Positions 7,505-22,295 of a stretch of 52,824 nucleotides of DNA are shown here, piece by piece (within the stretch, counting starts at the first letter, position 1; the number at the start of each line of letters is the position of its first letter). The stretch comes from Clostridia bacterium. Lineage in GTDB: Bacteria > Bacillota > Clostridia > Oscillospirales > CAG-272. Location of the stretch: NCBI GenBank assembly GCA_017482355.1, contig JAFUNJ010000009.1, forward strand, positions 229,229 to 282,052. The letters run 5' to 3'. The translations under genes and the position numbers were made by a program. The notes beneath the pieces are model-generated. The model was given only the letters and a program-made list of their open reading frames with translations, searched no databases and was not told the origin of the DNA.

Positions 7505-7522
7505 TGGAATGTATTTTTGTGA

Positions 7523-7560
7523 AAAAAGCAGATACCTAACATTTTTGGTATCTGCTTTTT
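7523..7560 (+). terminator. Terminator ending the heat-shock/LysR unit
   Basis: A 14-bp perfect stem (AAAAAGCAGATACC / GGTATCTGCTTTTT) around a ten-base loop, with the T-run in the right arm. The stretch from here to 7720 is AT-rich and shows no gene or clear signal. Confidence 0.92.
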
Positions 7561-7724
7561 TATATTACAGTATTCCTAAAATGAATGATAAAAAACGGAA
7601 AAAAGGACGGATTTTTGCCTGATGAATCCAAAAATGCTTCAACCGTGCAGAGTTTTGATCACGAAATCAGCGAAAATACGTAAAATGAAGCCGAAATTGC
7701 AAGAAATTAATTCGATAAAAAAAT

Positions 7725-7739
7725 ATCGGTATTCCCGAT
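7725..7739. promoter_or_regulatory. Candidate operator upstream of the malate/fumarate operon
   Basis: ATCGG-TATTC-CCGAT inverted repeat, six bases upstream of the -35 box at 7746. The size fits a LysR-type T-N11-A half-site arrangement, but there is only one copy, so this is tentative. Confidence 0.3.
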
Positions 7740-7745
7740 TTGCTC

Positions 7746-7774
7746 TTGAATTAATATGTATAATTTGATATACT
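7746..7774 (+). promoter_or_regulatory. Promoter of the mdh-fum-hdr-flx-frd run
   Basis: TTGAAT at 7746-7751, 17-bp spacer, TATACT at 7769-7774. It is the only good promoter seen before the uninterrupted + strand gene run that extends to 20253. Confidence 0.65.
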
Positions 7775-7812
7775 TACTATGTAATATTGTTATTTGAAGG
7801 GAATTTATTTCT

Positions 7813-8757
7813 ATGGGAAGAAAAGTTACGATAATCGGTGCCGGATCGGTCGGTGCGACAATAGCATATACCCTGGCGGTAAGCGGTAACGCGTCAGAGG
7901 TCGTGCTTATTGACATCAACGAGCAAAAGGCATTCGGTGAAGCGATGGATATAAGACAGGGTGCGCCCTTTACGCCGCCTATCAATATCTACTCGGGCGA
8001 TTATCCCGACGCTAAAAATTCTGACATCGTCATAGTAACCTCGGGTATCGCGCGCCGTCCGGGACAGTCGCGTCTCGACCTCGCGCAGACGAACGTTGAC
8101 ATCATAAAGAGCATAATTCCCAAAATAACCTCGGTAGCGCCGAACGCGGTATACGTTATAGTCAGTAACCCTGTTGATATACTGACGTACGTTTTCTGCC
8201 GCTGCTCGGGACTTCCCGAAAAGCAGATAATCGGCTCGGGTGCGCTGCTTGACACCGCGCGTCTGCGTTCACGTATTGCGGAAACGTTTTCTATCAGTAT
8301 GCAGAACGTACACGCGAGCGTTTTCGGTGAGCACGGTGACTCGTCCTTCGTTCCGTGGTCGCTTGCAACGGTCTCGGGAACTCCTATTGATATGTACGCA
8401 CAGTCAAAGGGACTTGAGGTTGACGGCTCGGGCTTTAACCATGACGAGATCGAGGAGTACGTAAGAAAATCCGGCTCGACAATAATTACGGCAAAGGGCG
8501 CGACCTATTATGCGATCGCTCTTACCGTTAACCACATCTGCTCCTGCGTTTTCCGCGGAATAGATACCGCGCTTTCGGTTTCGACGATGATGAACGGCGA
8601 ATACGGAATAAATGACGTTTGTCTTTCGATCCTTTCCATCGTAGGACGCGGCGGCGTGAACGGAAAGCTTATTTCTCCGCTTACCGAGGAAGAGATAGCA
8701 AAGCTTCATTACAGCGCAGACAAGCTGAGAGAAGTAATAGATCAGCTCAGAATATAA
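7813..8757 (+). CDS. LDH/MDH-superfamily dehydrogenase, probably malate dehydrogenase
   Basis: 314 residues. Rossmann motif VTIIGAGSVGATIAYTLAV at residues 5-23, catalytic arginine loop SGIARRPGQSRLDL at 77-90, substrate Arg150 in LLDTAR and catalytic His174 in FGEHGDSS. The scaffold (GEHGDS, KGATYY) is of the L-lactate dehydrogenase type. However, the residue equivalent to Gln102 of Bacillus LDH, which sets substrate specificity, is Arg81, as in malate dehydrogenases; Arg at this position is known to switch LDH toward oxaloacetate. The next gene is fumarase, which supports oxaloacetate + NADH to malate. The Thr of KGATYY is LDH-like, so residual lactate activity is possible. ATG 7813 is preceded by GAAGG. 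Confidence 0.85.
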   Translation: MGRKVTIIGAGSVGATIAYTLAVSGNASEVVLIDINEQKAFGEAMDIRQGAPFTPPINIYSGDYPDAKNSDIVIVTSGIARRPGQSRLDLAQTNVDIIKSIIPKITSVAPNAVYVIVSNPVDILTYVFCRCSGLPEKQIIGSGALLDTARLRSRIAETFSISMQNVHASVFGEHGDSSFVPWSLATVSGTPIDMYAQSKGLEVDGSGFNHDEIEEYVRKSGSTIITAKGATYYAIALTVNHICSCVFRGIDTALSVSTMMNGEYGINDVCLSILSIVGRGGVNGKLISPLTEEEIAKLHYSADKLREVIDQLRI

Positions 8758-8769
8758 GAGGTGAATAAA

Positions 8770-10146
8770 ATGGAATACCGTATAGAACACGATTCAATGG
8801 GCGAGGTTAAAGTCCCCGCCGATAAATACTGGGGAGCTCAGACGCAGAGAAGCTCCGAAAACTTCCGTATCGGAGTAGGCAACGAGGTCATGCCCCGTGA
8901 GATAACTCACGCATTCGGAATACTTAAAAAGGCGGCGGCGATAGCAAACGCGTCGCTCAAGCCCGAGAAGATGACACCCGAAAAGCTTGACGCAATTAAG
9001 AAGGCGTGCGACGAGGTCATTTCGGGCGAGCTTAACGGTCATTTCCCCCTTGTCGTATGGCAGACGGGAAGCGGTACGCAGTCGAATATGAACGCGAACG
9101 AGGTCATCGCAAACCGCGGAAACGAGATCGCAGGTAAAAAGCTTCTTCACCCCAACGACGATATAAATATGTCGCAGTCGTCGAACGATACCTTCCCGAC
9201 CGCAATGCATATCTCGGCAGTCCTTGAAATCGAAAACAAGCTTCTGCCCTCACTCGATACGCTTATAAGTACCTTCGAGCGTCTTGAAAAGGAAAACGAG
9301 GACGCGGTCAAGTGCGGAAGAACTCATCTTCAGGATGCAACTCCTATCAAGTTCTCGCAGGAGATAAGCGGCTGGAGAAGCAGTCTTATCCGTGACAGAG
9401 AAATGATCGTTATGGCGCTCAAGCCCCTTTACGAGCTTGCGCTCGGCGGTACGGCTGTCGGAACGGGACTTAACGCTCCGAAGGGCTTTTCCGAGCAGGT
9501 CGCAAAGGCAGTAGCGGACATTACGGGCAAGCCGTTTGTAACGGCGCAGAATAAATTCCACGCGCTCACATCAAAGGACGAGCTCGTGTTTGCACACGGC
9601 GCACTTAAGGCGCTCGCATGCGATATGATGAAGATAGCGAACGACGTTCGTTGGCTCGCATCGGGTCCGCGTGACGGTCTCGGCGAGATATTCATTCCCG
9701 AAAACGAGCCGGGATCATCTATAATGCCCGGTAAGGTCAATCCCACGCAGTGCGAGGCGGTAACCATGGTGGCTGTGCAGGTAATGGGTAACGATGTGGC
9801 AGTCGGTATGGCGGCATCTCAGGGTAACTTCGAGCTGAACGTCTTTATGCCGGTCTGCATCTACAATTTCCTTCAGTCAGTAAGACTTCTTGCCGACAGT
9901 ATCCTTTCCTTCAATAATAACTGCGCGGTCGGCATCAAGGCAAACAAAGAGAAGATGGCGCATAACCTTCATAATTCTCTCATGCTCGTAACGGCGCTTA
10001 ACCCCTATATCGGCTACGAAAACGCCGCAAAGACCGCGAAAAAGGCGTATAAGGATAATATTTCGCTTAAGGAAGCGTGCGTTGAGCTTGGATTCCTTAC
10101 TCCCGAACGCTTCGACGAGGTTTTCCACCCCGAGAACATGGTTTAA
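8770..10146 (+). CDS. fumC: Class II fumarate hydratase
   Basis: 458 residues, normal class II length. Contains the family signature [13 protein letters not shown] at about residue 315, the [13 protein letters not shown] and [11 protein letters not shown] substrate motifs, and TGLNAPKGF. It interconverts malate and fumarate without an iron-sulfur cluster. ATG 8770 is chosen over GTG 8761 because AGAGGTGA at 8757-8764 is well spaced for it. It follows the dehydrogenase by 12 bases and precedes the hdrB-like gene by 25, placing fumarate production next to the putative fumarate reductase. Confidence 0.96.
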
Positions 10147-10171
10147 TGAAATCGCAAAGGAAATAATTTCT

Positions 10172-10954
10172 ATGACATACAGTTATTATCCCGGCTGTAC
10201 TCTTAAAACAAAAGCAAAGGAGCTTGACAGAACTGCGCGTCTGTGCGCGGAGAAGCTCGGCGCGAATCTGCGCGAGCTTGATAATTGGCAGTGTTGCGGC
10301 GGCGCGTATACTGCGTCGAGCGACGAGATTGCAACGAAGCTTTCCTCCGTTCGCGCACTTCTCGAAGCCGAGAGCAGAGAAGAGGATATTATCACGCTTT
10401 GCTCCGCTTGCCATAACGTGCTTAAAAGAGTACGAAACGACCTGACAAACGATGCGAATTTCGCATTCAAGGTCAATAATTACGTCAAGCCCGAAAAGCC
10501 GTTTGAGGGCAAAACGAGAGTTATACATTTTCTTGAATTTCTCCGCGATGAGGTTGGCTTTGACAACCTGCGCGAAAAGGTCGTAAATCCGTTTACCGGC
10601 AAGAAGATTGCGGCTTATTACGGATGCCTGCTCCTGCGTCCTTCGGGCGTTATGGATATGGACGATCCCGAAAATCCGAAGATCCTTGAGGACTTTATCC
10701 GCGCTATCGGCGGCGAGCCGGTAATGTATCCGTACAGAAACGAATGCTGCGGCGGATACGTGGCGCTCGAGGATAAGTCGGCAACGGTGAAGAAAAGCGA
10801 AAAGATCGTCGCGTCTGCAGACGGATTTGGCGCAGATATTATTATCACTGCATGTCCGCTTTGCTTATATAACCTCGAAAGCGCAAAGGGAAACAGCGAG
10901 GTAAAATATTTTACCGAGCTATTGGCTCACGCGCTTGGCATCAAGGAGGCGTGA
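10172..10954 (+). CDS. hdrB: HdrB-like subunit (two CCG domains)
   Basis: 260 residues with two complete cysteine-rich CCG modules: Cys9-X31-CysCys41/42-X34-Cys77-X2-Cys80, and Cys152-X39-CysCys192/193-X34-Cys228-X2-Cys231. In methanogen HdrB these ligate the noncubane [4Fe-4S] clusters that cleave heterodisulfide. All ligands are kept, so an active disulfide- or electron-accepting site is likely. ATG 10172 with AAAGGAAA at 10156 is chosen; longer frames overlap fumC. In bacteria lacking CoM/CoB the partner is unknown; the nearby FrdAB genes suggest fumarate as end acceptor. The stop overlaps the hdrC leader region. Confidence 0.9.
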   Translation: MTYSYYPGCTLKTKAKELDRTARLCAEKLGANLRELDNWQCCGGAYTASSDEIATKLSSVRALLEAESREEDIITLCSACHNVLKRVRNDLTNDANFAFKVNNYVKPEKPFEGKTRVIHFLEFLRDEVGFDNLREKVVNPFTGKKIAAYYGCLLLRPSGVMDMDDPENPKILEDFIRAIGGEPVMYPYRNECCGGYVALEDKSATVKKSEKIVASADGFGADIIITACPLCLYNLESAKGNSEVKYFTELLAHALGIKEA

Positions 10955-10956
10955 AA

Positions 10957-11334
10957 ATGGATCTCAAAGAACAGGTACTTATAATGAGCGGCGTTGACGT
11001 GCGCAAGTGTATGGCTTGCGGAAAATGCTCGGGCGCGTGTCCGTCGTATAATGAGATGGAATACCATCCTCATCAGTTCGTTTCGATGGTCAAAAAGGGA
11101 AATATCGAGCCGCTTATGAAGTCGGAATCGGTATATAAATGCCTGACCTGTTACGCGTGCATCGAAAGATGTCCACGCGGCGTTGAGCCGGCAAAGCTTA
11201 TCGAAGCGATAAGACTGCTTGCAGTCCGTCCGCAGGGAAGCAACCATATCAAAGCCGACGATATCCCGTCGCTCCTTGATCCCGAGCTTCCTCAGCAAGC
11301 AATCGTTACGGCATTCCGTAAATACAGTAAATAA
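10957..11334 (+). CDS. hdrC: HdrC-like iron-sulfur subunit
   Basis: 125 residues with two four-cysteine ferredoxin motifs (Cys18, 21, 24, 28 and Cys62, 65, 68, 72), the layout of HdrC, which carries electrons from HdrA to HdrB. ATG 10957 with AAGGAGG at 10943-10949 is preferred over GTG 10951. It is shorter than methanogen HdrC proteins, but this soluble short form is common in bacterial hdr clusters. Confidence 0.9.
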   Translation: MDLKEQVLIMSGVDVRKCMACGKCSGACPSYNEMEYHPHQFVSMVKKGNIEPLMKSESVYKCLTCYACIERCPRGVEPAKLIEAIRLLAVRPQGSNHIKADDIPSLLDPELPQQAIVTAFRKYSK

Positions 11335-11362
11335 TTAACCGCATTCACTCTATCAGCGGTAG

Positions 11363-11382
11363 GGGAGGGGCTTGCTCCTCCC
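11363..11382 (+). other. CUUG-tetraloop hairpin between hdrC and hdrA
   Basis: GGGAGGGG / CTCCTCCC form eight pairs including one G-T wobble around a CTTG tetraloop, in the 110-base hdrC-hdrA gap. No T-run follows, so processing or stability control is likelier than termination. Confidence 0.45.
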
Positions 11383-11444
11383 GCAAAAGCATTTGAAAAT
11401 TGGTGCTATTACCCCATAACAATTAGTCCGAAAGGAATAAGAAA

Positions 11445-13436
11445 ATGCAAAGAATTGGAGTTTTCGTCTGTCACTGCGGCACGAACATCGCCGCAACTGT
11501 CGATGTCAAAGCCGTAGCCGAGGCGCTTAAATACGAGCCGGGCGTCGTCGTTTCAACGGAGTATCAGTATATGTGCTCCGAGGCAGGACAGGAGCTTATC
11601 AAAAATGCGATAAAGGAAAACGCGCTCACGGGCGTAGTCGTCTGCTCTTGCTCGCCCCGTATGCACGAGGCGACGTTCAGAAAGACGGTCGCGGCGGCGG
11701 GACTTAACCCGTACATGCTCGAGATCGCAAACATAAGAGAGCAGGTATCGTGGATACATAAAAATATCGAGGAGGCGACCGAAAAGGCGATAATCCTCGG
11801 ACGTGCCGCAATTGCAAAGGTGCATCTGAACGCCCCTCTTACTGCAGGCGAAAGCCCAGTAGTCAAGCGCGCGCTCGTCATAGGCGGCGGAATTGCAGGA
11901 ATACAGACTGCCCTCGATATCGCAGAGGCGGGTTTTGAAGTTGACATCGTCGAAAAGAATCCGACGATCGGCGGAAAGATGACACAGCTCGATAAGACCT
12001 TCCCGACTCTCGACTGTGCCGCTTGTATCCTCACGCCTAAAATGGTCGACTGCGCACAGAACGATAAGATAAAAATATATTCATATTCCGAGGTAAGCGA
12101 GGTAAAGGGCTTCGTCGGAAACTTTGACGTAACTATCAAGCGCAAAGCGCGTTACGTTGACGAAAACAAGTGTACGGGATGCGGTCTTTGTACCGAAAAG
12201 TGTCCGCAGAAAAAGGTTCCGAACGAGTTTAACCTCGGTCTTGACAACCGCCGCGCGATCTATATTCCGTTCGCGCAGGCAGTTCCGAAGATCGCAACGA
12301 TCGACGCCGATTATTGCACTATGCTGAAAAGCGGCAAGTGCGGAGTCTGCTCGAAGGTCTGCACCGCAGGTGCTATCGACTATAAACAAGAGGACTCCTT
12401 TGTAAACGAAAAATACGGCGCTATCGTAGTTGCAACGGGCTTCAACCCGATCAAGCTCGATAAGTATGACGAGTTTGCGTACAGCCAGAGCGCCGACGTT
12501 ATAACCTCGCTCGAGCTTGAGCGTCTTATGAACGCGGCAGGCCCGAACGGCGGAACGCTTCTTCGCCCGTCCGATAAAAAGCATCCGCATAGGATCGCAT
12601 TTATACAGTGCGTCGGCTCGCGCTGTGACGACGGCAAGGGAAAGAGCTACTGCTCGAAGATCTGCTGTATGTATACGGCGAAGCACGCAATGCTGATAAG
12701 AGAAAAATACCCCGATACCGAGGTTTACGTATTCTATATTGATGTCCGTACCCCCGGAAAGAACTTCGACGAGTTCTACCGCCGCGCGGTCGAAGAATAC
12801 GGTGTTAACTATATAAAGGGAATGGTCGGAAAGGTGCTTCCCGAGCCGGACGGTACACTTACAGTCCGCGCGTCGGATCTGCTTAACGGTACTCAATTGA
12901 ATCTTTCCTGTGACCTCGTGGTTCTCGCCGCGGCTATCGAGCCCGATAAGAGCGCACGTCCCTTGGCGACCATGCTTACCGCAAGCATGGATACAAACGA
13001 CTTCTTCACCGAAGCACATCCGAAGCTTCGTCCCGTTGAAAGCCCCACGGCAGGAATCTTCCTCTCGGGCGCTTGTCAGGGACCGAAGGATATTCCCGAG
13101 ACCGTCTCGCAGGCATCTGCCTGCGCGGCAAAGGTTATCGGTCTGCTAGCGAAGAATACACTTAAAGGAAATCCCTGCGTAGCTCACAGCGACGAGCTGC
13201 TCTGTAACGGCTGTTCGTCGTGTGAAAAGGTATGTCCTTACGGCGCGATCAGCTATTCGGATAAGGAATTCCGTATAAACGGTAAAATGGTAACTCGCCG
13301 CGTAGCGAGTGTTAACCCTGCCGTATGTCAGGGCTGCGGTGCATGTACCGTTGCCTGCCCGTCGGGCGCTATGGACCTGAACGGCTTCAGCAATTCTCAG
13401 ATTATGGCGGAGGTAGACGCGATATGCAAATGGTGA
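11445..13436 (+). CDS. hdrA: HdrA-like flavin/iron-sulfur subunit
   Basis: 663 residues, full length for HdrA. N-terminal cysteine domain (Cys9, Cys11, Cys44, Cys67, Cys69). FAD-binding Rossmann motif ALVIGGGIAGIQTA at about 143-156, then NPTIGGKMTQLDKTF and the LDCAACILTPKM cluster motif. Ferredoxin motif CTGCGLCTEKCPQ lies in the insert, and two C-terminal [4Fe-4S] motifs (CNGCSSCEKVCP and CQGCGACTVACP) close the protein. HdrA is the flavin-based electron-bifurcating subunit, sending electrons to ferredoxin and to HdrBC. ATG 11445 follows CCGAAAGGAA. Its end overlaps the flxD start by 13 bases. Confidence 0.95.
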   Translation: MQRIGVFVCHCGTNIAATVDVKAVAEALKYEPGVVVSTEYQYMCSEAGQELIKNAIKENALTGVVVCSCSPRMHEATFRKTVAAAGLNPYMLEIANIREQVSWIHKNIEEATEKAIILGRAAIAKVHLNAPLTAGESPVVKRALVIGGGIAGIQTALDIAEAGFEVDIVEKNPTIGGKMTQLDKTFPTLDCAACILTPKMVDCAQNDKIKIYSYSEVSEVKGFVGNFDVTIKRKARYVDENKCTGCGLCTEKCPQKKVPNEFNLGLDNRRAIYIPFAQAVPKIATIDADYCTMLKSGKCGVCSKVCTAGAIDYKQEDSFVNEKYGAIVVATGFNPIKLDKYDEFAYSQSADVITSLELERLMNAAGPNGGTLLRPSDKKHPHRIAFIQCVGSRCDDGKGKSYCSKICCMYTAKHAMLIREKYPDTEVYVFYIDVRTPGKNFDEFYRRAVEEYGVNYIKGMVGKVLPEPDGTLTVRASDLLNGTQLNLSCDLVVLAAAIEPDKSARPLATMLTASMDTNDFFTEAHPKLRPVESPTAGIFLSGACQGPKDIPETVSQASACAAKVIGLLAKNTLKGNPCVAHSDELLCNGCSSCEKVCPYGAISYSDKEFRINGKMVTRRVASVNPAVCQGCGACTVACPSGAMDLNGFSNSQIMAEVDAICKW

Positions 13437-13864
13437 ATAACGAATTCAAGCCGAAAATAGTCGCTTTCTGCTGTAACTGGTGCTCTTACGCAGGAGCCGA
13501 TCTTGCAGGAACTAACCGTCTTCAGTATCCGGCGGAGGTCAAGATCATCCGCGTGCCCTGCTCATGCAGAGTAAACCCGATGTTCATTCTCCGCGCATTC
13601 CAAAGAGGCGCCGACGGAGTTATAATCTGCGGCTGCCACCCCGGCGACTGCCACTATACGACGGGTAACTACTACGCGAGAAGAAGAATGACTCTCCTTT
13701 TCTCAATGCTCGACTTCCTCGGCATCGAGAAGGAACGCACGCGTCTTGAATGGGTATCGGCGGCTGAAGGTCAGAAATTCGCTTCAACGATGAGCGATTT
13801 CGTCAAGACGGTGACTGAGCTTGGCAAAAACAAGCGCTTGGAGGATCTGAGATGCAAGAAATGA
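13424..13864 (+). CDS. flxD: FlxD/MvhD-like [2Fe-2S] subunit
   Basis: 146 residues. Conserved MvhD motifs FCCNWCSYAGADLAG near the N-terminus, then VPCSCRVNP and CGCHPGDCHY, providing five or more cysteines for a [2Fe-2S] centre. MvhD/FlxD passes electrons from the donor module to HdrA. ATG 13424 follows GCGGAGGT at 13408-13415 and is chosen because it keeps a short coupling overlap with hdrA and drops non-homologous residues upstream. Confidence 0.9.
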   Translation: MQMVNNEFKPKIVAFCCNWCSYAGADLAGTNRLQYPAEVKIIRVPCSCRVNPMFILRAFQRGADGVIICGCHPGDCHYTTGNYYARRRMTLLFSMLDFLGIEKERTRLEWVSAAEGQKFASTMSDFVKTVTELGKNKRLEDLRCKK

Positions 13865-14835
13865 TGAAAAAGAAAGCGATCGAGCTGCTCGGTAGCGGCG
13901 CTGTCGCTCGCGTTCTCGGCTGGAAAAAGGGCGAGTTTGATTATGATATCACCCCTGCCGTTTTTGAAAGCATCGAGGAGATAGAAAACGAATTTATTTA
14001 TAATTCTCTCTGCTCGCCGAACCTTTCGAAATATCTCGTAAAGGAAAGCCGTAAAGAGGGAAAGACGCTTATATTCCTTAAGCCCTGCGATTCTTACAGC
14101 TTGTCACAGCTTATCACAGAGCATAGAGTTGTGAGAGAAAACGTATACGCTATCGGTATCGAATGCTACGGCAAGACCGACGCCGATACGATCAAGGAAA
14201 AGGGAATCAAGGGAATTACGAAGATCACTGAAAATGACGGTGTGCTGAATATAGAAACTCTCTACGGAAACGAAAAAGTACCCGTATACGAGGTTCTTCG
14301 CGAAAGATGCGTAAACTGTAAGAGCAAAAAGCATCCCGTTTACGACGAGCTTATCGGCGAAGAGGGCCAAGCGGTCGACGACTGCGAGCGCTTTAGCGAG
14401 GTCGATAGGATCGAGAGAATGACGCCCGAGGAGAGATTTGCGTTCTTCCGCGGTGAGCTTTCGCGCTGTATAAGATGTAACGCCTGCCGTAACGTATGCC
14501 CCGCTTGTACCTGCGAGAAATGCGTGTTTGATAACGACGCATCGGGCATCGCGCAGAAGGCGGCGTCTGACTCCTTTGAGGAAAATATGTTCCACATCAT
14601 CCGCGCCTTCCACGTCGCAGGAAGATGTACAGACTGCGGCGAATGCTCTCGCGTTTGTCCGCAGAATATACCGCTTCACCTGCTCAACCGTAAGTTTATA
14701 AAGGATATTAACGAGCTTTACGGTAACTATCAGCCGGGTGAAAATATCGGCAACCGTTCGCCGCTTACCGATTACACGCAGAACGACGCCGAGCCGAATA
14801 TCGTCTATAAGAGAGGAGGAAAGGACAATGCTTAA
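13852..14835 (+). CDS. flxC: FlxC-like iron-sulfur protein
   Basis: 327 residues. Cysteine groups in order: CVNCKSKKHP near residue 145, CIRCNACRNVCPACTCEKC near 204, and CTDCGECSRVCPQN near 262, ending in a long C-terminal tail. The overall look is of FrhB/FdhB-type and hydrogenase-beta iron-sulfur proteins, matching the FlxC position in flxABCD-hdrABC clusters of anaerobes. ATG 13852 with GGAGGAT upstream overlaps flxD by 13 bases. It probably wires FlxA/B to FlxD. The FlxB/FlxC names follow gene order and could be swapped. Confidence 0.8.
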   Translation: MQEMMKKKAIELLGSGAVARVLGWKKGEFDYDITPAVFESIEEIENEFIYNSLCSPNLSKYLVKESRKEGKTLIFLKPCDSYSLSQLITEHRVVRENVYAIGIECYGKTDADTIKEKGIKGITKITENDGVLNIETLYGNEKVPVYEVLRERCVNCKSKKHPVYDELIGEEGQAVDDCERFSEVDRIERMTPEERFAFFRGELSRCIRCNACRNVCPACTCEKCVFDNDASGIAQKAASDSFEENMFHIIRAFHVAGRCTDCGECSRVCPQNIPLHLLNRKFIKDINELYGNYQPGENIGNRSPLTDYTQNDAEPNIVYKRGGKDNA

Positions 14836-15847
14836 AATAAAGCTTTCCGAGCTTCCTATCCTCTTTGAAGCACTTTCTGATAAAAATAAGCTTTATATAC
14901 CGGCTGATACGAAGGGCGGAGCGCGTTTCCTCCCTTATGAGAACGGAATGACGATGACGAAGGAGCTTAACACCGTCCGTTCCCCCAAGGACCTTTTCTT
15001 CCCTCAGACCGAAAATCTTATGGATTTTAAGGTTGAAGGAAAGAAGATCGAAGTCATCGACACCCGTGAGGAATGTGAGGATTTTGTGATCTTCGGCGTG
15101 CGCGCCTGCGACGTAAGAAGCTTCGAGGTTCTTGACAGAGTATTCCTCTCCGAGCCGATAGACACTTATTATAAAAACCGCCGCGAGCACGGCGTTATCG
15201 TCTCGCTCGCCTGCAACCGTCCCGAGGAGACCTGCTTCTGCTCGACCTTTGATATCGACTGTGCAAATCCCGAGGGCGACGTTGCGTCTTATATCTGCGG
15301 CGACGAGATGTATTTCGAGCCGCTTACCGAAAAGGGAAGCGAGCTGCTTCTGAATCTTTCGTGTTTAAGAGAGGGAAGTGAAGCGCCCGTTTACGAATGC
15401 AAGAGAAATGTTTACGAGATCAAGTCGAAGCTGCCCCTGTCTACCCTTTCTGCCGAGAAGTTCGGTAAGGATATGATGGAATATTTTAATTCCGATAAGT
15501 GGGATGAGCTTTCGGAAGCTTGTCTCGGATGCGGAACCTGCACATTCGTCTGCCCGACCTGTCAGTGCTACGATATCAAGGATTTCGACACAGGCAACGG
15601 CATCAAGAGATTCAGATGCTGGGATTCCTGCATGTATTCTGATTTTACAAAGATGGCACACGGAAATCCCCGTGTGAGCCAGAAGGAGCGCTTCCGTCAG
15701 CGCTTTATGCACAAGCTCGTGTATTATCCGATGAATAACGACGGACTGTTCAGCTGTGTCGGATGCGGCAGATGCTTATCAAAATGCCCGATCTCGATGA
15801 ACATAGTAAAGGTAATGAAAAAGCTCGGGGAGGGTAAAGATGAATAA
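14828..15847 (+). CDS. flxB: FlxB-like (AsrA/hydrogenase-beta family) 4Fe-4S protein
   Basis: 339 residues. The N-terminal part (FGVRACDVRSFEVLDRVF and ACNRPEETCFCSTF) and two ferredoxin motifs (CLGCGTCTFVCP near residue 237 and CVGCGRCLSKCP near 317) are typical of the anaerobic sulfite reductase A / sulfhydrogenase beta family. ATG 14828 has AGGAGGAAAGG just upstream and overlaps flxC by eight bases; the longer frame is rejected for lack of homology. It should carry electrons between the flavoprotein FlxA and FlxC/D. Confidence 0.85.
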   Translation: MLKIKLSELPILFEALSDKNKLYIPADTKGGARFLPYENGMTMTKELNTVRSPKDLFFPQTENLMDFKVEGKKIEVIDTREECEDFVIFGVRACDVRSFEVLDRVFLSEPIDTYYKNRREHGVIVSLACNRPEETCFCSTFDIDCANPEGDVASYICGDEMYFEPLTEKGSELLLNLSCLREGSEAPVYECKRNVYEIKSKLPLSTLSAEKFGKDMMEYFNSDKWDELSEACLGCGTCTFVCPTCQCYDIKDFDTGNGIKRFRCWDSCMYSDFTKMAHGNPRVSQKERFRQRFMHKLVYYPMNNDGLFSCVGCGRCLSKCPISMNIVKVMKKLGEGKDE

Positions 15848-16667
15848 CGAAACACTTATTCCCGTAATCGGCGTTGTGACCGATATCAGGATCGACACCC
15901 CCGACGTTAAGACCTTCCGCGTCGTGACTCCCGAGGGAAATAAGCCCTTTGAGCACATGCCCGGTCAGTGCGCGATGCTTTCGATTCCCGGTGTAGGTGA
16001 AGCGATGTTCTCGATAACCTCCTCCCCTACGAACACCGAGTATATGGAGTTCAGCATAAAGAAGTGCGGATGCTTAACCGATTGGCTTCACAAAATGGAG
16101 GTCGGTCAGTACGTGACCGTCCGCGGTCCGTACGGAAACTATTTCCCCGTCGAGACCGAGCTTAAGGGCAAAAACCTGCTCTTCATTGCAGGAGGTATCG
16201 GACTTGCGCCGCTTCGCTCGGTAATAAACTATTGCCGTGCAAACCGCGATAATTACGGCACTATCGACATCGTCTACGGCTCACGCTCAAAGGACGACCT
16301 CGTTGATTATTCCGAAATAATAAACGAGTGGATGACCGAGGCAGGCGTCAGCGTACACCTGACGATAGACCGCGAGCAGGAGGGCTGGGACGGACACGTC
16401 GGATTTGTACCGAATTACGTCAAGGAGCTTAACCCCGATATAAACAAAACCGTTCTCGTCTGCGGACCGCCTATAATGATAAAGTTCACGCTTAACGCTC
16501 TTAAGGAGCTTGGTTTTACCGAGGAGCAGGTCTATACGACGATGGAGCTTCGCATGAAATGCGGAGTCGGCAAGTGCGGAAGATGCAATATAGGAAGCAA
16601 ATACGTCTGCAAGGACGGTCCCGTTTTCCGTTACGATAAGCTCGGCGCGCTTCCCGACGAATACTGA
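15840..16667 (+). CDS. flxA: FlxA-like FAD/NAD(P)-binding reductase (AsrB family)
   Basis: 275 residues. Ferredoxin-NADP-reductase fold: FAD motif MFSITSSPT near residue 57, GPYGNYFP, NAD(P)-binding AGGIGLAPLRSVI near 119-131, and CGPPIMIKF. The C-terminal cysteines CGVGKCGRCNIGSKYVC bind a [2Fe-2S] cluster, as in AsrB and dihydroorotate dehydrogenase K subunits. This is the predicted NADH entry point of the complex. It overlaps flxB by eight bases and is followed 13 bases later by the frdB-like gene, so donor and acceptor modules are adjacent. Confidence 0.92.
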   Translation: MNNETLIPVIGVVTDIRIDTPDVKTFRVVTPEGNKPFEHMPGQCAMLSIPGVGEAMFSITSSPTNTEYMEFSIKKCGCLTDWLHKMEVGQYVTVRGPYGNYFPVETELKGKNLLFIAGGIGLAPLRSVINYCRANRDNYGTIDIVYGSRSKDDLVDYSEIINEWMTEAGVSVHLTIDREQEGWDGHVGFVPNYVKELNPDINKTVLVCGPPIMIKFTLNALKELGFTEEQVYTTMELRMKCGVGKCGRCNIGSKYVCKDGPVFRYDKLGALPDEY

Positions 16668-16680
16668 TGAGGTAACTACT

Positions 16681-17355
16681 ATGGAAAATATGGTAAACAT
16701 ATATCTTTACGGCAAAAAATACGAGGTGCCGTCAAATCTTACGATAATGAGCGCGATGGAGTACGCGGGCTATCAGCTCGTGCGCGGTGTCGGATGCCGT
16801 TGCGGCTTCTGCGGCGCATGCGCTACCATCTACCGCATAAAGGGAGACAGAGAGCTTAAGACCTGTCTTGCTTGCCAGACGAAGGTAGAGGACAATATGT
16901 ATATTGCAACCCTTCCTTTCTTCCCGCTCGTAAAGCAGCCCTACGATATCGAAAAGGTCAAGCCGACCGAGCAGATAATGATGCAGCTTTATCCCGAAAT
17001 TTACGCCTGCATCGGCTGTAACGCCTGCACGAAGGCGTGTACGCAGGGGCTTAACGTAATGCAGTACATCGCTTACGCACAGCGCGGTGAGTACGAAAAG
17101 TGCGCGGATGAATCCTTCGACTGCGTAATGTGCGGAGTTTGTTCGTCGCGTTGCCCCGCAGAAATTACCCACGGTCAGGTCGGACTTCTTTCACGCCGAC
17201 TTACAGGTAAGTATCTCTCCCCCGAAACACAGCATCTCCTTGAGAGAGTTGCCGAGATCGAAAACGGCGACTGCGAAGCGGCTCTTCAGGACATTATGAA
17301 GAAGACCGCTGAAGAGCTTAAAGAAATGTATAACAACCGCGATTTCGAGAAGTAA
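16681..17355 (+). CDS. frdB: Fumarate reductase iron-sulfur subunit-like protein
   Basis: 224 residues. N-terminal [2Fe-2S] domain with CRCGFCGACATI (Cys39, 44, 47) and CLAC (Cys62). The C-terminal domain has CIGCNACTKAC (Cys110, 113, 116, 120) and CVMCGVCSSRCP (Cys148, 151, 154, 158). In E. coli FrdB the second motif reads CTFVGYCSEVCP, where Val207 enforces a [3Fe-4S] centre beside the quinone; here that position is Cys151, so two [4Fe-4S] centres are predicted. No FrdC/FrdD or cytochrome b anchor is encoded nearby, so the enzyme should be soluble. ATG follows GATGAGGTAA. Confidence 0.88.
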   Translation: MENMVNIYLYGKKYEVPSNLTIMSAMEYAGYQLVRGVGCRCGFCGACATIYRIKGDRELKTCLACQTKVEDNMYIATLPFFPLVKQPYDIEKVKPTEQIMMQLYPEIYACIGCNACTKACTQGLNVMQYIAYAQRGEYEKCADESFDCVMCGVCSSRCPAEITHGQVGLLSRRLTGKYLSPETQHLLERVAEIENGDCEAALQDIMKKTAEELKEMYNNRDFEK

Positions 17356-17367
17356 GGAGGCGAGGAT

Positions 17368-18981
17368 ATGTACAGTAAAGAAATGCTTGAATCGATCAAG
17401 AAGGTCGAAGCTACACGTGAAGAACGTATTAAAGCCGTTCTTGCGGGAAATCATCCGCGCCGAATGACGGCAGAGGAAAAGGAGCAGGTGCTTCTTGAAA
17501 ACCACCCTGACCATATAAAGGAGCAGTTTAAAGAGCTTACTATCGGTCCTAACAAGGGCGAAAAGGTGCCGCTTGAGCTGGCAGATCTGCTTCAGGCGAA
17601 TCCGAGAATCAAGCCCTCGGAGATAGACCTGAGCAAAATTGATTACGACGTTGACGTGCTTATAATCGGCGGCGGCGGAGCGGGCTCTGCGGCTGCTATT
17701 ATGGCAAACGAAAACGGCGCTGACGTTATGATCGTAACCAAGCTTCGTCACGGCGACGCTAACACGATGATGGCGGAGGGCGGCATCCAGGCGGCAGATA
17801 AGCCGAACGACAGCCCTGCACAGCACTATCTTGACGTTATGGGTGGCGGACACTTCAAAAACGTTCCCGAGCTTGTCTATAAGCTGGTAAACGACGCGCC
17901 TATCTGTATCAAGTGGCTGAACGACCTCGGCGTTATGTTCGATAAAGAACCCGACGGCACTATGGTAACGACGCACGGCGGCGGTACCTCGCGTAAGCGT
18001 ATGCACGCCTGCAAGGACTATTCGGGCGCCGAGATAATGAGAGTTCTGCGCGACGAGGTGCAGAACAGAAAGATCCCCGTCGTTGACTTCACGTCTGCTA
18101 TCGAAATAATCAAGGATAAGGACGGCAAGGCCGCGGGCGCAGTCCTTATGAATATGGAAACTAACGAGATACTGATCGCACGTGCAAAGACCGTCGTTAT
18201 CGCAACGGGCGGCGCGGGAAGAATGCACTATCAGGGCTTCCCGACCTCGAACCACTACGGCGCGACGGCAGACGGACTCGTTCTTGCATACAGAGCAGGC
18301 GCTCCGCTTCTTTATGCGCACACCTTGCAGTATCATCCGACGGGTGCTGCATATCCCTCGCAGATATTCGGCGCACTTGTTACCGAAAAGGTACGTTCTA
18401 TCGGCGCACAGCTTGTCAACTGCGACGGCGAGCCCTTTATGTACTCGCTTGAGACCCGTGACGTTTGCGCTTCGGGAGTTATCCGTGAATGCAGAAAAGG
18501 CAAGGGTGTTGATACCTTTGACGGCGGCAAGGGCGTGTGGCTCGATTCGCCGATGATAGATATACTTCACGGAGAGGGAACCATCGAGAAGAGAATTCCC
18601 GCAATGATGCGTATGTACCTGAAATACGGCATTGATATGCGTAAGCAGCCGATACTTATCTACCCGACGCTTCACTATCAGAACGGCGGTATCAAGATAG
18701 GCGAAAATGGAATGTCCGACGTGCCTAACCTCTTTGTTGCGGGCGAAGCAGTAGGAGGAATCCACGGTGAAAACCGTCTTATGGGTAACTCGCTGCTTGA
18801 CATCATCGTCTTCGGACGTAACGCAGGCGTTAACGCCGCAAAGGAAGCAAAGAGCATGAATGCTCCCGAGGGACTTACGCTCGGTCACGTTGATTCGTTT
18901 ATAAAGGAAATGGCGGATGCGGGAATCGTCACCGATAAGGTGTCGCCGAAGCTTCTTCCAAACTACGCAAGAAAGGTGTAA
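17368..18981 (+). CDS. frdA: Fumarate reductase flavoprotein subunit-like protein
   Basis: 537 residues. FAD motif VLIIGGGGAGSAAAIMA near 97-113 and catalytic-site motifs of the fumarate reductase family: QYHPTG (His323), LETRDV (Arg364), PTLHYQNGGI (His436) and HGENRLMGNSL (Arg470), matching E. coli His232, Arg287, His355 and Arg390. So fumarate-succinate chemistry is likely. Two oddities: about 92 extra residues before the FAD motif, and Asn132 where E. coli FrdA has the His that binds FAD covalently, so FAD is probably noncovalent. The C-terminal helical domain is short. Strong ribosome binding site AGGAGGCGAGGAT. Last enzymatic gene of the operon. Confidence 0.9.
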   Translation: MYSKEMLESIKKVEATREERIKAVLAGNHPRRMTAEEKEQVLLENHPDHIKEQFKELTIGPNKGEKVPLELADLLQANPRIKPSEIDLSKIDYDVDVLIIGGGGAGSAAAIMANENGADVMIVTKLRHGDANTMMAEGGIQAADKPNDSPAQHYLDVMGGGHFKNVPELVYKLVNDAPICIKWLNDLGVMFDKEPDGTMVTTHGGGTSRKRMHACKDYSGAEIMRVLRDEVQNRKIPVVDFTSAIEIIKDKDGKAAGAVLMNMETNEILIARAKTVVIATGGAGRMHYQGFPTSNHYGATADGLVLAYRAGAPLLYAHTLQYHPTGAAYPSQIFGALVTEKVRSIGAQLVNCDGEPFMYSLETRDVCASGVIRECRKGKGVDTFDGGKGVWLDSPMIDILHGEGTIEKRIPAMMRMYLKYGIDMRKQPILIYPTLHYQNGGIKIGENGMSDVPNLFVAGEAVGGIHGENRLMGNSLLDIIVFGRNAGVNAAKEAKSMNAPEGLTLGHVDSFIKEMADAGIVTDKVSPKLLPNYARKV

Positions 18982-18990
18982 TATACGGCT

Positions 18991-20253
18991 ATGGAACTTT
19001 TTGGCGGTGTTATCACCATTTCTAATATATCGACTCTGCTTGTCGTCGTTTTTGCCGTACTTTTCCTCGGATATCTTCTCGGAAGAATTACGATAAAGGG
19101 AGTTTCACTCGGTGACGCAGGCGTATTCGTCGTCGCACTTATCGTCGGCGCGCTCTGCTTTACCGTCAACGAAGGAACGGGACTGAACTTTTTCGCATCA
19201 AAAGTACCTTACGATTTTTCGTCGGGGCTGTCGATCATCGAAAGTCTCGGACTTGTCCTTTTCGTAACGTCGGTCGGCTTCATAGCAGGTCCGAAGTTTT
19301 TCGGAAATCTGAAAAAGAATTTCAAATCCTACGTTCTTATCGGATTGGTAGTAATTGTGGCAGGTGCTCTTGCGGCTGTCGGATGTATATACATCGGAGA
19401 GGCAGTTGGCTACGGCTCGACAATCGAGGATCAGGACGGCTTTGTCGCAATGATAGTCGGACTTCTTTCCGGCTCGCTTACCTCGACTCCCGCATTCTCT
19501 GCGGCAAAGGCGACGGTTCACCCCGATTATGAATCCCTCGTTTCTGTAGGACACGGTATCGCTTATATATTCGGCGTTATCGGCGTCGTGCTGTTCGTAC
19601 AGCTCGTTCCGAAGATCGCAAAGGCGAATATGGAAGAGGAAAGAGCAAAGCTCGTAATTAAAAAAGAAGAAACGAAAAAACCGTTTGCGGGAAAGCTCTT
19701 TGAGTTTGACCACATGGGAATTGCCGTGTTTGCTCTTGCAGCGATCCTCGGAACGTTTATCGGTCAGATAAAGATACCGCTTTCAGGCAAGGGACTTGAC
19801 GGCACCTGCTTCTCGCTCACAACAACGGGCGGATGCCTGCTTGTCAGCTTGATCCTCGGACACTTTACCCGTATAGGTAAGATCAGCATTATGCCGAAGG
19901 AATCGACCCTTAAGCTCTTCCGTGAGCTTGGACTTGTGTTCTTCCTTGTCGGCGCAGGAATCCCCGGCGGCGCGGAATTTGTTGCAAACTTTGACCCGAT
20001 GTACTTCGTTTACGGAATCATCATGACGGTCATTCCGATGTTTGTCGGCTTCTTCTTCGCAAAGTATGTACTCAAGCTGTCGCTTCTCAACAACCTCGGC
20101 TCGATAACGGGCGGTATGACGAGCACACCTGCTCTCGGAACGCTAATTAACGTCTCGGGAACGGAGGACGTTGCGTCTGCTTACGCGGCAACCTATCCTA
20201 TCGCACTTGTCGCAGTCGTTCTCGTCTCGCAGTTCTTAATTATCCTGTTCTGA
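18991..20253 (+). CDS. AspT/YidE-family membrane transporter
   Basis: 420 residues, roughly ten hydrophobic segments. The two halves each carry the duplicated family motif: GLLSGSLTSTPAFSAA near residue 160 and GSITGGMTSTPALGTL near 370. The RCK/TrkA-C domains found between the halves in AspT and YidE are absent; only a charged loop (EEERAKLVIKKEETKKP) is present. The family includes the aspartate:alanine exchanger AspT and succinate-linked exchangers. Its place nine bases after frdA suggests C4-dicarboxylate export or aspartate:succinate exchange, which is inference. Weak ribosome binding site, so coupling to frdA translation is likely. Confidence 0.85.
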   Translation: MELFGGVITISNISTLLVVVFAVLFLGYLLGRITIKGVSLGDAGVFVVALIVGALCFTVNEGTGLNFFASKVPYDFSSGLSIIESLGLVLFVTSVGFIAGPKFFGNLKKNFKSYVLIGLVVIVAGALAAVGCIYIGEAVGYGSTIEDQDGFVAMIVGLLSGSLTSTPAFSAAKATVHPDYESLVSVGHGIAYIFGVIGVVLFVQLVPKIAKANMEEERAKLVIKKEETKKPFAGKLFEFDHMGIAVFALAAILGTFIGQIKIPLSGKGLDGTCFSLTTTGGCLLVSLILGHFTRIGKISIMPKESTLKLFRELGLVFFLVGAGIPGGAEFVANFDPMYFVYGIIMTVIPMFVGFFFAKYVLKLSLLNNLGSITGGMTSTPALGTLINVSGTEDVASAYAATYPIALVAVVLVSQFLIILF

Positions 20254-20274
20254 TCTCGGATAAAATATTAAGCG

Positions 20275-20298
20275 TTTTGTCAATATCCATTGACAAAA
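20275..20298. promoter_or_regulatory. Perfect 24-bp palindrome at the rex promoter (candidate Rex operator)
   Basis: TTTTGTCAAT-ATCC-ATTGACAAAA: ten-base arms with four central bases. It overlaps the -35 box (TTGACA 20290-20295). Clostridial Rex sites resemble TTGTTAA-N4-TTAACAA; here the arms share TTGT...ACAA but spacing is two bases longer, so Rex binding is plausible but not certain. Confidence 0.6.
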
Positions 20299-20318
20299 AA
20301 CAATTTATTGTATATAAT
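20290..20318 (+). promoter_or_regulatory. Consensus SigA promoter of rex
   Basis: TTGACA at 20290-20295, exactly 17 bp, TATAAT at 20313-20318. A perfect consensus promoter, so repression through the overlapping palindrome would be needed for control. Confidence 0.9.
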
Positions 20319-20320
20319 GT

Positions 20321-20354
20321 AAAATGCAAGAAACGAAAGCCAAACTTGCATTTT
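20321..20354. repeat. Second inverted repeat in the rex leader
   Basis: AAAATGCAAG / CTTGCATTTT, ten-base perfect arms 14 bases apart. The predicted transcription start near 20325 lies inside the left arm, so it may act as DNA (operator or roadblock) rather than as an RNA hairpin. The right arm ends just before the rex ribosome binding site. Confidence 0.6.
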
Positions 20355-20367
20355 GCGTGAGGAAGAT

Positions 20368-21000
20368 ATGAATTCTAATCAACCTGTCTCACGAAATACA
20401 CTTCAGCGTTTGCCCCGATATTTGAATTATCTCAAATCGCTCGATCCGTGCGGAAACGTGTCGTCAACCGAGATAGCAAAGGCACTTGGACTTAACGATG
20501 TTCAGGTTCGTAAGGATCTTTCATCGGTAAGCTCGGGCGGACGCCCGAAGGTCGGGTATAACGTATCGGCGCTTATGAGCGATTTGAAAGAATTCCTCGG
20601 CTATAATGCAACAAAGGGCGCAATTATCGTCGGCGCTGGAAATCTCGGAAGAGCACTTATGTCTTACCGCGGCTTCTCAGAATACGGACTTACGATCACT
20701 GCGGGATTCGACAGTAATCCGGCGCTCGTCGGTTGCCGTGTGGATGGGAAAGAGATCCTTTCGCTCGAGTCGCTTGGCAGCTATTGCCGCGAAAACGGAG
20801 TCGAAATCGGAGTAATAACGACTCCGGCTCGCTATGCTCAGGAGGTGAGCGATCTGCTCGTTTCCGCAGGGATAAAGGCAATATGGAACTTCGCGCCGGC
20901 GCATATATACGTCCCCGACGGAGTTCTCGTACAAAATGAAAACATGGCTTGCTCTCTTGCGCTTCTATCAAAGCATCTGAACGAGATGCTCGGCGAATAA
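20368..21000 (+). CDS. rex: Redox-sensing transcriptional repressor Rex
   Basis: 210 residues. N-terminal winged helix (RLPRYLNYL ... SSTEIAKALGLNDVQVRKDLS), then a Rossmann fold with IIVGAGNLGRALMSY near residue 86-100 and the swapped C-terminal helix. Rex senses the NADH/NAD+ ratio and represses fermentation genes. ATG 20368 with GAGGAAG is chosen over the upstream TTG. Its position between the Hdr-Flx-Frd genes and aspartate aminotransferase suggests NADH-responsive control of the reductive pathway. Confidence 0.95.
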   Translation: MNSNQPVSRNTLQRLPRYLNYLKSLDPCGNVSSTEIAKALGLNDVQVRKDLSSVSSGGRPKVGYNVSALMSDLKEFLGYNATKGAIIVGAGNLGRALMSYRGFSEYGLTITAGFDSNPALVGCRVDGKEILSLESLGSYCRENGVEIGVITTPARYAQEVSDLLVSAGIKAIWNFAPAHIYVPDGVLVQNENMACSLALLSKHLNEMLGE

Positions 21001-21011
21001 GGAGAAATTTT

Positions 21012-22295
21012 ATGCAGTACTCGAATATGACGAAGGAAGAGCTTGAAACGCTTCTTTCACAGCTCGAAGCAGATTACCGTGCCTTCAAGGCGAAGGAGCT
21101 TTCGCTCAATATGGCGAGAGGCAAGCCGTCGGTAGATCAGCTTGACCTTTCGATGGGAATGATGGACATTCTTTCTTCCGAAAGCGACCTCACCTGCGAA
21201 GACGGAACGGACTGCCGTAACTACGGAGTCCTCGACGGACTTCCCGAGGCAAAACAGCTTCTCGGTGATATGATGGAGGTTCCTGCCGATAATATAATCA
21301 TATACGGAAACTCGTCGCTGAACGTAATGTACGACACCGTCTCGCGTTCGATGACGCACGGCGTACTTGGCTCAACACCTTGGTGCGAGCTCGATAAGGT
21401 CAAATTCCTTTGCCCCGTTCCCGGCTACGACAGACACTTCGCGATCACGCAGTATTTCGGTATCGAAATGATAACCGTTCCGATGACGAAGGACGGTCCC
21501 AATATGGATATGGTCGAAAAGCTCGTATCCGAGGATGATTCGATAAAAGGCATCTGGTGCGTTCCGAAGTATTCGAATCCGCAGGGATATTCTTATTCCG
21601 ATGAAACTGTACGTAGATTTGCGCACCTGAAGCCGAAGGCAAAGGACTTCCGAATCTATTGGGATAACGCATATACGATACATCACCTTTATGACAACGA
21701 TCAGGACTACCTGCTCGAGATCCTCGACGAATGCCGTAAGGCGGGCAATCCCGATATGGTGTATAAGTTCGCGTCGACGTCGAAGATATCTTTCCCGGGC
21801 TCGGGAATTGCCGCTATCGCCGCTTCTCATAACAACCTCGACGACATACGCCGACAGCTCGGCATACAGACGATAGGGCACGACAAGGTGAATCAGCTTC
21901 GTCACGTCCGTTTCTTCAAGAATATCGAGGGAATGAACGAGCATATGCGTCGCCACGCAGACATTCTCCGCCCGAAGTTCGAAAAGGTGCTTGAAATACT
22001 TGAAAAAGAGCTTGGCGGACTTGGTATCGGCGAGTGGACGAAGCCGAAGGGCGGATATTTCATCTCCTTCGATTCGCTTCCCGGATGCGCAAAGGCGATC
22101 GTCGCGCGAGCTAAAAAGGCAGGCGTAATAATGACGGGCGCAGGCGCGACCTATCCTTACGGAATAGATCCCGAGGACTCTAACATCCGCATCGCACCCT
22201 CCTATCCGTCGATTTCCGACCTTGAAACCGCAACGAAGCTTTTCGCTCTCTGCGTCAAGATCGAAAGCGCGAATAAGATACTATCGAAAAAATAA
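21012..22295 (+). CDS. Aspartate aminotransferase, MocR-like type (class Ic)
   Basis: 427 residues. N-terminal KELSLNMARGKPS and DCRNYGVLDGLPEAK, PLP-binding YGNSSLNVMYDT, WCVPKYSNPQGYSYSDE, WDNAYTIHH, and the Schiff-base lysine in FASTSKISFPGSG. This set matches the PF12897-type aspartate aminotransferases of Corynebacterium and clostridia rather than AspC or YbdL. It interconverts aspartate and oxaloacetate, the substrate of the dehydrogenase at 7813, with 2-oxoglutarate/glutamate. ATG 21012 with GGAG, 11 bases after rex; same operon. Confidence 0.9.
   Translation: MQYSNMTKEELETLLSQLEADYRAFKAKELSLNMARGKPSVDQLDLSMGMMDILSSESDLTCEDGTDCRNYGVLDGLPEAKQLLGDMMEVPADNIIIYGNSSLNVMYDTVSRSMTHGVLGSTPWCELDKVKFLCPVPGYDRHFAITQYFGIEMITVPMTKDGPNMDMVEKLVSEDDSIKGIWCVPKYSNPQGYSYSDETVRRFAHLKPKAKDFRIYWDNAYTIHHLYDNDQDYLLEILDECRKAGNPDMVYKFASTSKISFPGSGIAAIAASHNNLDDIRRQLGIQTIGHDKVNQLRHVRFFKNIEGMNEHMRRHADILRPKFEKVLEILEKELGGLGIGEWTKPKGGYFISFDSLPGCAKAIVARAKKAGVIMTGAGATYPYGIDPEDSNIRIAPSYPSISDLETATKLFALCVKIESANKILSKK

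Follow-up and report, generated by a model that had tools for sequence, protein, structure and literature searches.

The closest described counterpart of the locus analyzed here is the "succinate operon" published for Pseudoclostridium thermosuccinogenes (PMC7282089, which cites a 2019 preprint, 10.20944/preprints201912.0288). The accessible part of that report gives a fumarase (RS03365), Flx-Hdr genes (RS03360-30), a fumarate reductase (RS03325-20) and a hypothetical protein regarded as a potential succinate transporter (RS03315), and assumes that the fumarate reductase is linked to ferredoxin reduction. Tubeworm symbionts carry tfrAB-korABCD-flxABCD-hdrABC, for which the accessible text of two reports (PMC6315080, PMC11636981) proposes that Hdr-Flx delivers electrons directly to a putative thiol:fumarate reductase. 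Here we analyze a stretch of DNA of 52,824 nucleotides (hereafter the window) from Clostridia bacterium (Oscillospirales; CAG-272; assembly GCA_017482355.1, contig JAFUNJ010000009.1, positions 229,229 to 282,052), whose source genome comprises 1.69 Mb. The window contains the gene order hdrB-hdrC-hdrA-flxD-flxC-flxB-flxA-frdB-frdA, all on the + strand and 3' of mdh and fumC. From its sequence, we consider it probable that this block encodes a cytoplasmic, NADH-dependent, bifurcating fumarate reductase that reduces ferredoxin.

The locus resembles the P. thermosuccinogenes operon in having fumarase, Flx-Hdr, fumarate reductase and putative transporter genes in the same order, as judged from the accessible published description and not by sequence comparison, and differs from it in having mdh in front. 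As in the tubeworm symbionts (whose gene content, not sequence, was compared, from the accessible text), Flx-Hdr genes are interspersed with a putative fumarate reductase; the symbiont genes, however, stand in a setting of carbon fixation by the reductive tricarboxylic acid cycle with 2-oxoglutarate:ferredoxin oxidoreductase. The Flx-Hdr gene set is shared with the FlxABCD-HdrABC (Hdr/flox) system of Desulfovibrio, for which the accessible parts of PMC4215793 and PMC5296606 propose a disulfide such as DsrC as acceptor, whereas DsrC had no match in any of six genomes that we searched with profiles (the window's own, 77.5% complete; three others of its genus and two of its family, these five being 94-98% complete). 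The methanogen TfrAB system is similar in that TfrA is the best NCBIfam model for the FrdA of the window, but its TfrB is a single chain with an HdrB-like half, while the window encodes FrdB, HdrC and HdrB separately and adds HdrA and Flx. The genes of the locus are as follows.

7813..8757, + strand: dehydrogenase of the lactate/malate dehydrogenase (LDH/MDH) family, probably mdh (Ldh_1_N/C Pfam domains; above L-LDH cut-offs; Arg at the presumed specificity position)
8770..10146, + strand: class II fumarate hydratase FumC (TIGR00979, 723.7 bits, cut-off 664.75)
10172..10954, + strand: HdrB, two CCG domains (PF02754; ten cluster cysteines)
10951..11334, + strand: HdrC, two 4Fe-4S motifs (Pfam and NCBIfam scans; eight cysteines)
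11335..11444, + strand: spacer between hdrC and hdrA, containing a hairpin (folding energy -30 kcal/mol, z -2.1)
11445..13436, + strand: HdrA, FAD and ferredoxin domains (HdrA2 model; 5odc_A)
13424..13864, + strand: FlxD, MvhD/FlpD family (PF02662, 190 bits)
13852..14835, + strand: FlxC, 4Fe-4S protein (4Fe-4S models; named from its position in the Flx order)
14828..15847, + strand: FlxB, sulfhydrogenase-beta/AsrA-like 4Fe-4S protein (PF17179; further models below cut-offs)
15840..16667, + strand: FlxA, FAD/NAD-binding subunit, likely NADH-oxidising (NAD_binding_1, DHODB_Fe-S_bind)
16681..17355, + strand: FrdB-like protein, one 2Fe-2S and two 4Fe-4S motifs (Pfam, alignment)
17368..18981, + strand: FrdA-like protein, N-terminal extension, FAD_binding_2 (profile scans, alignment)
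18991..20253, + strand: AspT/YidE/YbjL-type permease, candidate succinate exporter (PF06826, TIGR01625)
20353-21000, + strand: Rex (own perfect sigma-70-like promoter)

The block is real. An earlier note on this DNA, made from the letters alone, had described hdrB to frdA as one tight run with coupling overlaps. We confirmed the order and found overlaps between five pairs (hdrB/hdrC, hdrA/flxD, flxD/flxC, flxC/flxB and flxB/flxA), with gaps of 13 and 12 bp before frdB and frdA; hdrC to hdrA is not tight, the two being separated by 110 bp with a hairpin, where the median spacing in 54 relatives is 15 bp. Four of 200 shuffled sequences folded as well as this hairpin. Both the malate dehydrogenase-like gene and the fumarase gene lie 5' of the block, as had been said. 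The range 8770 to 20253 assigned to the set does contain all nine genes, but frdA stops at 18981 and the rest is the permease gene; likewise, the range holds no Sdh/Frd-type membrane anchor, as claimed, although it does include this membrane transporter.

The gene order is not a product of chance, because it is kept in all 53 relatives with enough upstream sequence. We searched a set of 59 genomes, the source genome included, for orthologues and found full-length ones with at least 64% identity in 20 further genomes, with flxA, frdB and frdA together in 20/20. A scan of named genomes returned at least 569 relatives, of which we read the best 80 loci, a set biased to close relatives. Among these best 80, the block was kept wherever the contig sufficed (hdrB 53/53, hdrA 54/54, flxA 66/66, frdB 69/69), no locus with a long enough contig lacked the Hdr-Flx genes, and there were no fusions among block genes, as judged by a shared end of the open reading frame (ORF). 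No hdrA was found on viral contigs. The nearest named relatives are metagenome-assembled genomes (MAGs) labelled "Clostridia bacterium" or "Oscillospiraceae bacterium", many from the ruminant gut; among the best 80 there are, in addition, MAGs assigned by name to Spirochaetales/Treponema, Synergistaceae and Lachnospiraceae, and a single named strain, Schaedlerella arabinosiphila DSM 106076 (L106; L and G numbers are our handles for loci and genomes). The identical nine-gene order occurs in Ilyobacter polytropus DSM 2926 (pILYOP01, ILYOP_RS13115-13070), at 43-68% identity over the nine genes (FrdA 68%, HdrA 64%). There, aspartate ammonia-lyase, another fumarate-forming enzyme, replaces fumC in front of the block, and aminotransferase and TRAP transporter genes lie 3' of it. 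The earlier note had proposed such a genome survey as a check on the adjacency of frdAB to hdrABC-flxABCD, and had named adjacency in this genome only as grounds to abandon its reading; the linkage recurs across the relatives and in I. polytropus.

All seven Flx-Hdr (FlxABCD-HdrABC) subunits are encoded in one cluster, HdrB with two CCG cluster motifs and HdrA with FAD and Fe-S motifs, as in members of the Flx-Hdr family. HdrA matched the HdrA2 model with 802 bits over residues 3-661, under the 1100-bit cut-off, and the remainder of the model was matched by FlxD, a separate gene here. It is also similar to 5odc_A, an HdrA whose structure has been solved (E 1e-212). K413 of the window's HdrA, which aligns with K409 of 5odc_A and which we take to be functionally important, is conserved in 55/55 sequences, as are, by alignment, the cluster cysteines of HdrA, the ten CCG cysteines of HdrB and the eight cysteines of HdrC. 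It seems improbable to us that the block is an NADH:fumarate reductase without bifurcation, in which Flx-Hdr would be a mere relay and ferredoxin would be uninvolved, since a plain relay would need no HdrA and this HdrA is full-length with its cysteines and K413 conserved.

The N-terminal domain of FrdB is of the 2Fe-2S type, and the protein also carries two CxxCxxCxxxC motifs; FrdA has approximately 92 additional N-terminal residues and an FAD_binding_2 domain; Succ_DH_flav_C was absent from its Pfam matches. The FrdA positions aligned with E. coli SdhA H242, T254, E255, R286, H354 and R399, which we presume to be catalytic, are invariant in 41 sequences. Asn132, equally invariant in these 41, occupies the position of the His that binds FAD covalently in succinate dehydrogenase (SDH) and quinol:fumarate reductase, and the FAD of FrdA is probably non-covalent. 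Because FrdA and FrdB score below every NCBIfam cut-off, we infer the function "fumarate reductase" from context, catalytic residues and distant similarity; this assignment is helped by the neighbours, namely fumC and mdh here, aspartate ammonia-lyase in Ilyobacter and DctA in Cupriavidus. FrdA did not qualify as TfrA (336 bits, cut-off 718) or as L-aspartate oxidase NadB (270.7 bits, cut-off 452.75), and none of FrdB, HdrB and HdrC qualified as TfrB (36.7, 31.8 and 31.4 bits, cut-off 385). A second relative, in a 433-aa frame elsewhere in the genome, may be NadB.

In the mechanism we propose, FlxA would oxidise NADH and FlxB, FlxC and FlxD would pass the electrons to the FAD of HdrA, which would split each pair, sending one electron to ferredoxin and the other to HdrC and HdrB. 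From there electrons would move to FrdB and the FAD of FrdA, where fumarate would be reduced to succinate; Mdh and FumC would supply the fumarate and the permease would probably export the succinate. The net reaction would be 2 NADH + Fd(ox) + fumarate -> 2 NAD+ + Fd(red) + succinate, where Fd is ferredoxin. The potential of ferredoxin is -420 to -500 mV. The calculated energy change of the net reaction is approximately -33 to -49 kJ/mol, with the E0' values of NADH and fumarate taken from the accessible part of PMC5861303. The electrons probably travel via HdrBC to FrdB, a thiol carrier being the alternative. We put forward tentatively, at a little short of an even chance, the more specific proposal that FrdBA is a soluble terminal module for fumarate reduction that in these anaerobes docks directly on the HdrBC of Flx-Hdr, that the non-cubane clusters of HdrB act as a wire or gate to FrdB and not as a disulfide reductase, and that the same module is plugged elsewhere into HdrCB alone, a membrane HdrC-cytochrome or NuoF-like NADH modules.

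To place frdBA in a wider sample, we searched 398 genomes of the phylum, of which 39 (the source genome included) had FrdA at E <= 1e-80, and read 39 loci from the other 38. Five loci carry the full Flx-Hdr set (L129, and L141-L144 in the permuted order frdBA-hdrBCA-flxDCBA) and four carry hdrC-hdrB-frdB-frdA (L140, L150, L151, L156). In 11, the region 5' of frdBA encodes an additional HdrA-like protein, FlxD and a FlxC-like protein; hdrCB is present in nine of these (the contigs of L152 and L158 end too early), and KorAB-like genes, named by eye, adjoin ten (L160 has one partner only). Three loci have a 4Fe-4S/cytochrome b561 fusion (assigned by Pfam in L122 and by similarity in L123 and L124), two a short HdrC-like protein whose tail was judged hydrophobic by eye (L127, L137), and one a NapC-like cytochrome as sole donor candidate (L125). 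Twelve have no such genes directly adjoining (L130 and L138 read over less than 3 kb upstream; L126 without a frdB match), and one contig is cut off (L146). Beyond this sample, FrdA relatives at 43-46% identity (L201:6914-11301; L202:6204-9807) adjoin a NuoF-like protein and DctA in Cupriavidus metallidurans and, with a Fer2/4Fe-4S protein, a NuoF-like protein in Pseudoroseomonas cervicalis. From their sequences, these sets may encode an NADH-linked, soluble enzyme that acts on C4-dicarboxylates in aerobes, and in favour of the non-bifurcating scheme they suggest that simple NADH coupling is possible. Because HdrCB, HdrC-like membrane, cytochrome and NuoF-like partners all adjoin frdBA, we regard it as a module with several donors. 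On an FrdA tree of 61 rows made by a quick method (L130 and L149 dropped out), Flx-Hdr linkage to frdBA amounts to three changes, with three gene orders, forced by starred branches; gains and losses look alike in these changes. FlxA was searched in 23 of the 38 genomes, leaving aside the five linked and ten Kor-type; a relative with at least 52% identity was found in 19, G128 and G352 had one at only 39%, and G125 and G434 had none at 1e-30. In L132 (6500-9718, - strand), a 1073-aa protein with two HdrA-like halves lies between hdrA and flxD, beside frdBA and KorAB-like genes, and related loci gave matches resembling it.

We then asked which HdrB accompanies frdBA. The HdrB tree comprised 41 rows including an archaeal HdrB (11 of 55 window-clade rows and four of ten Kor-type loci), with a second version lacking the archaeal row; long branches from the second Flx-Hdr sets of G309 and G332 were omitted (L177_B from both trees, L196_B also from the one with the archaeal row). 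One side of the tree (31 rows; support 97/97, or 91/89 when the archaeal row was omitted) held all 24 included HdrBs of linked frd operons, one of the two L134 HdrBs and the HdrBs of six unlinked Flx-Hdr sets (G425, G292, G405, G148, G068, G267). Five of these six genomes have frdBA without another donor gene directly adjoining (G292 read over only 2 kb upstream), and G148 has two copies, the first of this kind and the second next to an HdrC-like protein. On the opposite side were the HdrBs from the Flx-Hdr sets of eight genomes, in seven of which the frdBA partner was readable: G102, G356 and G309 have their own HdrCB beside frdBA, G097, G436, G137 and G091 an HdrC-like or cytochrome partner, and the frdBA contig of G332 is cut off. 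We had predicted the side beforehand for four genomes; G068 and G267 were readable and both fell as predicted, and G187 and G242 were at contig ends. By the criterion used, no HdrB match was obtained for the additional Flx sets of G187, G267, G242 and G405. The best HdrB-specific evidence comes from the four sets of HdrCB-frdBA with no HdrA beside them, whose HdrBs group with the window type rather than with that of the Flx-Hdr set in the same genome (read in three of four, not G419). These groupings suggest an HdrB type that mostly accompanies frdBA, among genomes that all carry FrdBA, with no FrdBA-free control, and that are in part related and so not independent.

In an alternative scheme, Flx-HdrABC bifurcates electrons from NADH to ferredoxin and a disulfide, and the dithiol is reoxidised at HdrBC with electrons passing to FrdBA and fumarate, as in methanogen thiol:fumarate reductase and with no direct wire. 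Such a scheme fits as well where hdrC-hdrB-frdB-frdA is separate from an hdrCB-hdrA-flx set with its own HdrB (G102, G356, G309), and it is in keeping with the conservation of both CCG motifs of HdrB in 55/55 and with the finding that FrdB, HdrC and HdrB each align to a stretch of their own in the 488-position TfrB model, with slight overlap (18-148, 131-218 and 414-486, respectively). However, each of the six profile-searched genomes has one full-length HdrA and, as described above, no DsrC match, a single HdrB would have to take part in both half-reactions (no search for further HdrB copies was made), and we know of no thiol carrier for such a scheme. On balance we judge it unlikely, though less so than a relay without bifurcation.

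Several observations weigh against a bifurcating complex with direct transfer from HdrBC to FrdB. With all ten cluster cysteines, HdrB may still reduce a disulfide, and G102, G356 and G309 keep their frdBA-linked HdrCB apart from the Flx-Hdr set. The HdrB signal may be operon-wide, because the HdrA tree splits as the HdrB tree does, and of the two HdrBs 5' of frdBA in L134 (G337) the nearer (oriented 4361) is on the opposite side. Pairwise FrdB identities follow those of FrdA (correlation 0.84) but are weakly correlated with those of HdrB (0.40); in L033, L034 and L036-L043, frdBA is 87-93% identical to the window and HdrB 56-65%, so that the frdBA pair seems to have been swapped between operons independently of hdrB, hdrC, flxC and flxB. 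Most genomes compared are MAGs. The fate of the reduced ferredoxin is also in doubt, because RnfC, the one Rnf gene searched for, was above cut-off in two of the six genomes, neither of which is among the four that belong to the window's genus. Because Fe_hyd_lg_C hydrogenase proteins are present in all six, reduced ferredoxin may end as H2. In the window's genome, L118:5914-8227 carries an RnfC-like gene followed by one judged RnfD-like by eye; no further Rnf gene could be made out in the 14 kb read.

The six genomes had no match to Sdh_cyt (PF01127; other anchor families were not searched) or to MenA (TIGR00751; the futalosine route was not searched), so that the Sdh_cyt anchor and menaquinone synthesis of a quinol:fumarate reductase/SDH were found in none. 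GTP-dependent phosphoenolpyruvate carboxykinase (GTP-PEPCK) was present in all six and ATP-PEPCK in none. A path from phosphoenolpyruvate (PEP) through oxaloacetate, malate and fumarate to succinate and export is a coherent branch, and the accessible part of PMC7282089 describes the same PEP-to-succinate route with GTP-PEPCK in P. thermosuccinogenes. The opposite direction, in which succinate and reduced ferredoxin would be oxidised to form NADH, draws on the fact that HdrA-type bifurcation can in principle be reversed. We consider it very improbable, as the order mdh-fumC-...-frdBA-permease and GTP-PEPCK fit a reductive branch to succinate and the accessible text of PMC7282089 discusses the P. 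thermosuccinogenes operon in terms of succinate formation.

Among the flanking genes, the mdh-like protein scored above two L-LDH NCBIfam cut-offs (344 vs 339; 323 vs 303.6). It has an Arg aligned to a Gln of 1ldn that we take to confer lactate specificity, and it is likely a malate dehydrogenase. By tblastn among the best 80 of at least 569 relatives, mdh and/or fumC lie at most 3.2 kb 5' of hdrB in 51/53 loci; of the other two, L083 has a class I fumarase pair by ORF reading and L077 has neither. The permease matched PF06826 (Asp-Al_Ex/YidE-YbjL) with 181 bits (cut-off 27), a relative of it lies at most 1.5 kb 3' of the block in 53 of the 73 of these best loci with enough contig, and it probably exports succinate. 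A LysR-type regulator (6563-7504) lies on the same strand directly 5' of mdh. Before rex, a perfect TTGACA-17-TATAAT promoter (20277-20318) overlaps the inverted repeat TTGTCAA-N6-TTGACAA. Rex control of the operon found no support: the window has seven consensus sites with at most three mismatches, against 8.5 expected, and none within 7300-21100. At 50122-52408 on the - strand, a DcuS/MalK-like sensor kinase and a DcuR-like response regulator (named after their top-scoring NCBIfam models, whose cut-offs they did not reach) are a possible C4-dicarboxylate sensor approximately 30 kb from the operon.

Taken together, these analyses partly support the earlier interpretation. The operon is real, widely conserved and of an already published type: the arrangement and the idea, whose publication status the earlier note had left open, are in print in the accessible parts of PMC7282089 and PMC6315080. 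The phrase "bifurcating fumarate reductase" was absent from the papers listed in one literature search. In the literature searched, which reached neither the cited preprint nor the majority of subscription papers, we found no Flx-Hdr-Frd complex that had been purified or assayed. The additions made here are a broader distribution that takes in named strains, three separate linkages, a range of modular donors for frdBA and an HdrB type found mostly alongside it. The named carriers I. polytropus DSM 2926 and S. arabinosiphila DSM 106076 make the block directly testable. If direct docking is true, quinone-free bifurcating fumarate reduction would occur in gut Clostridia, some Spirochaetes, Synergistes and Fusobacteria. 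If the bifurcating reading is true, bacteria without quinones and cytochromes would conserve the energy of fumarate reduction as cytoplasmic reduced ferredoxin, and the accounting of ATP and hydrogen would change for rumen and hindgut succinate formers and for succinate biotechnology.

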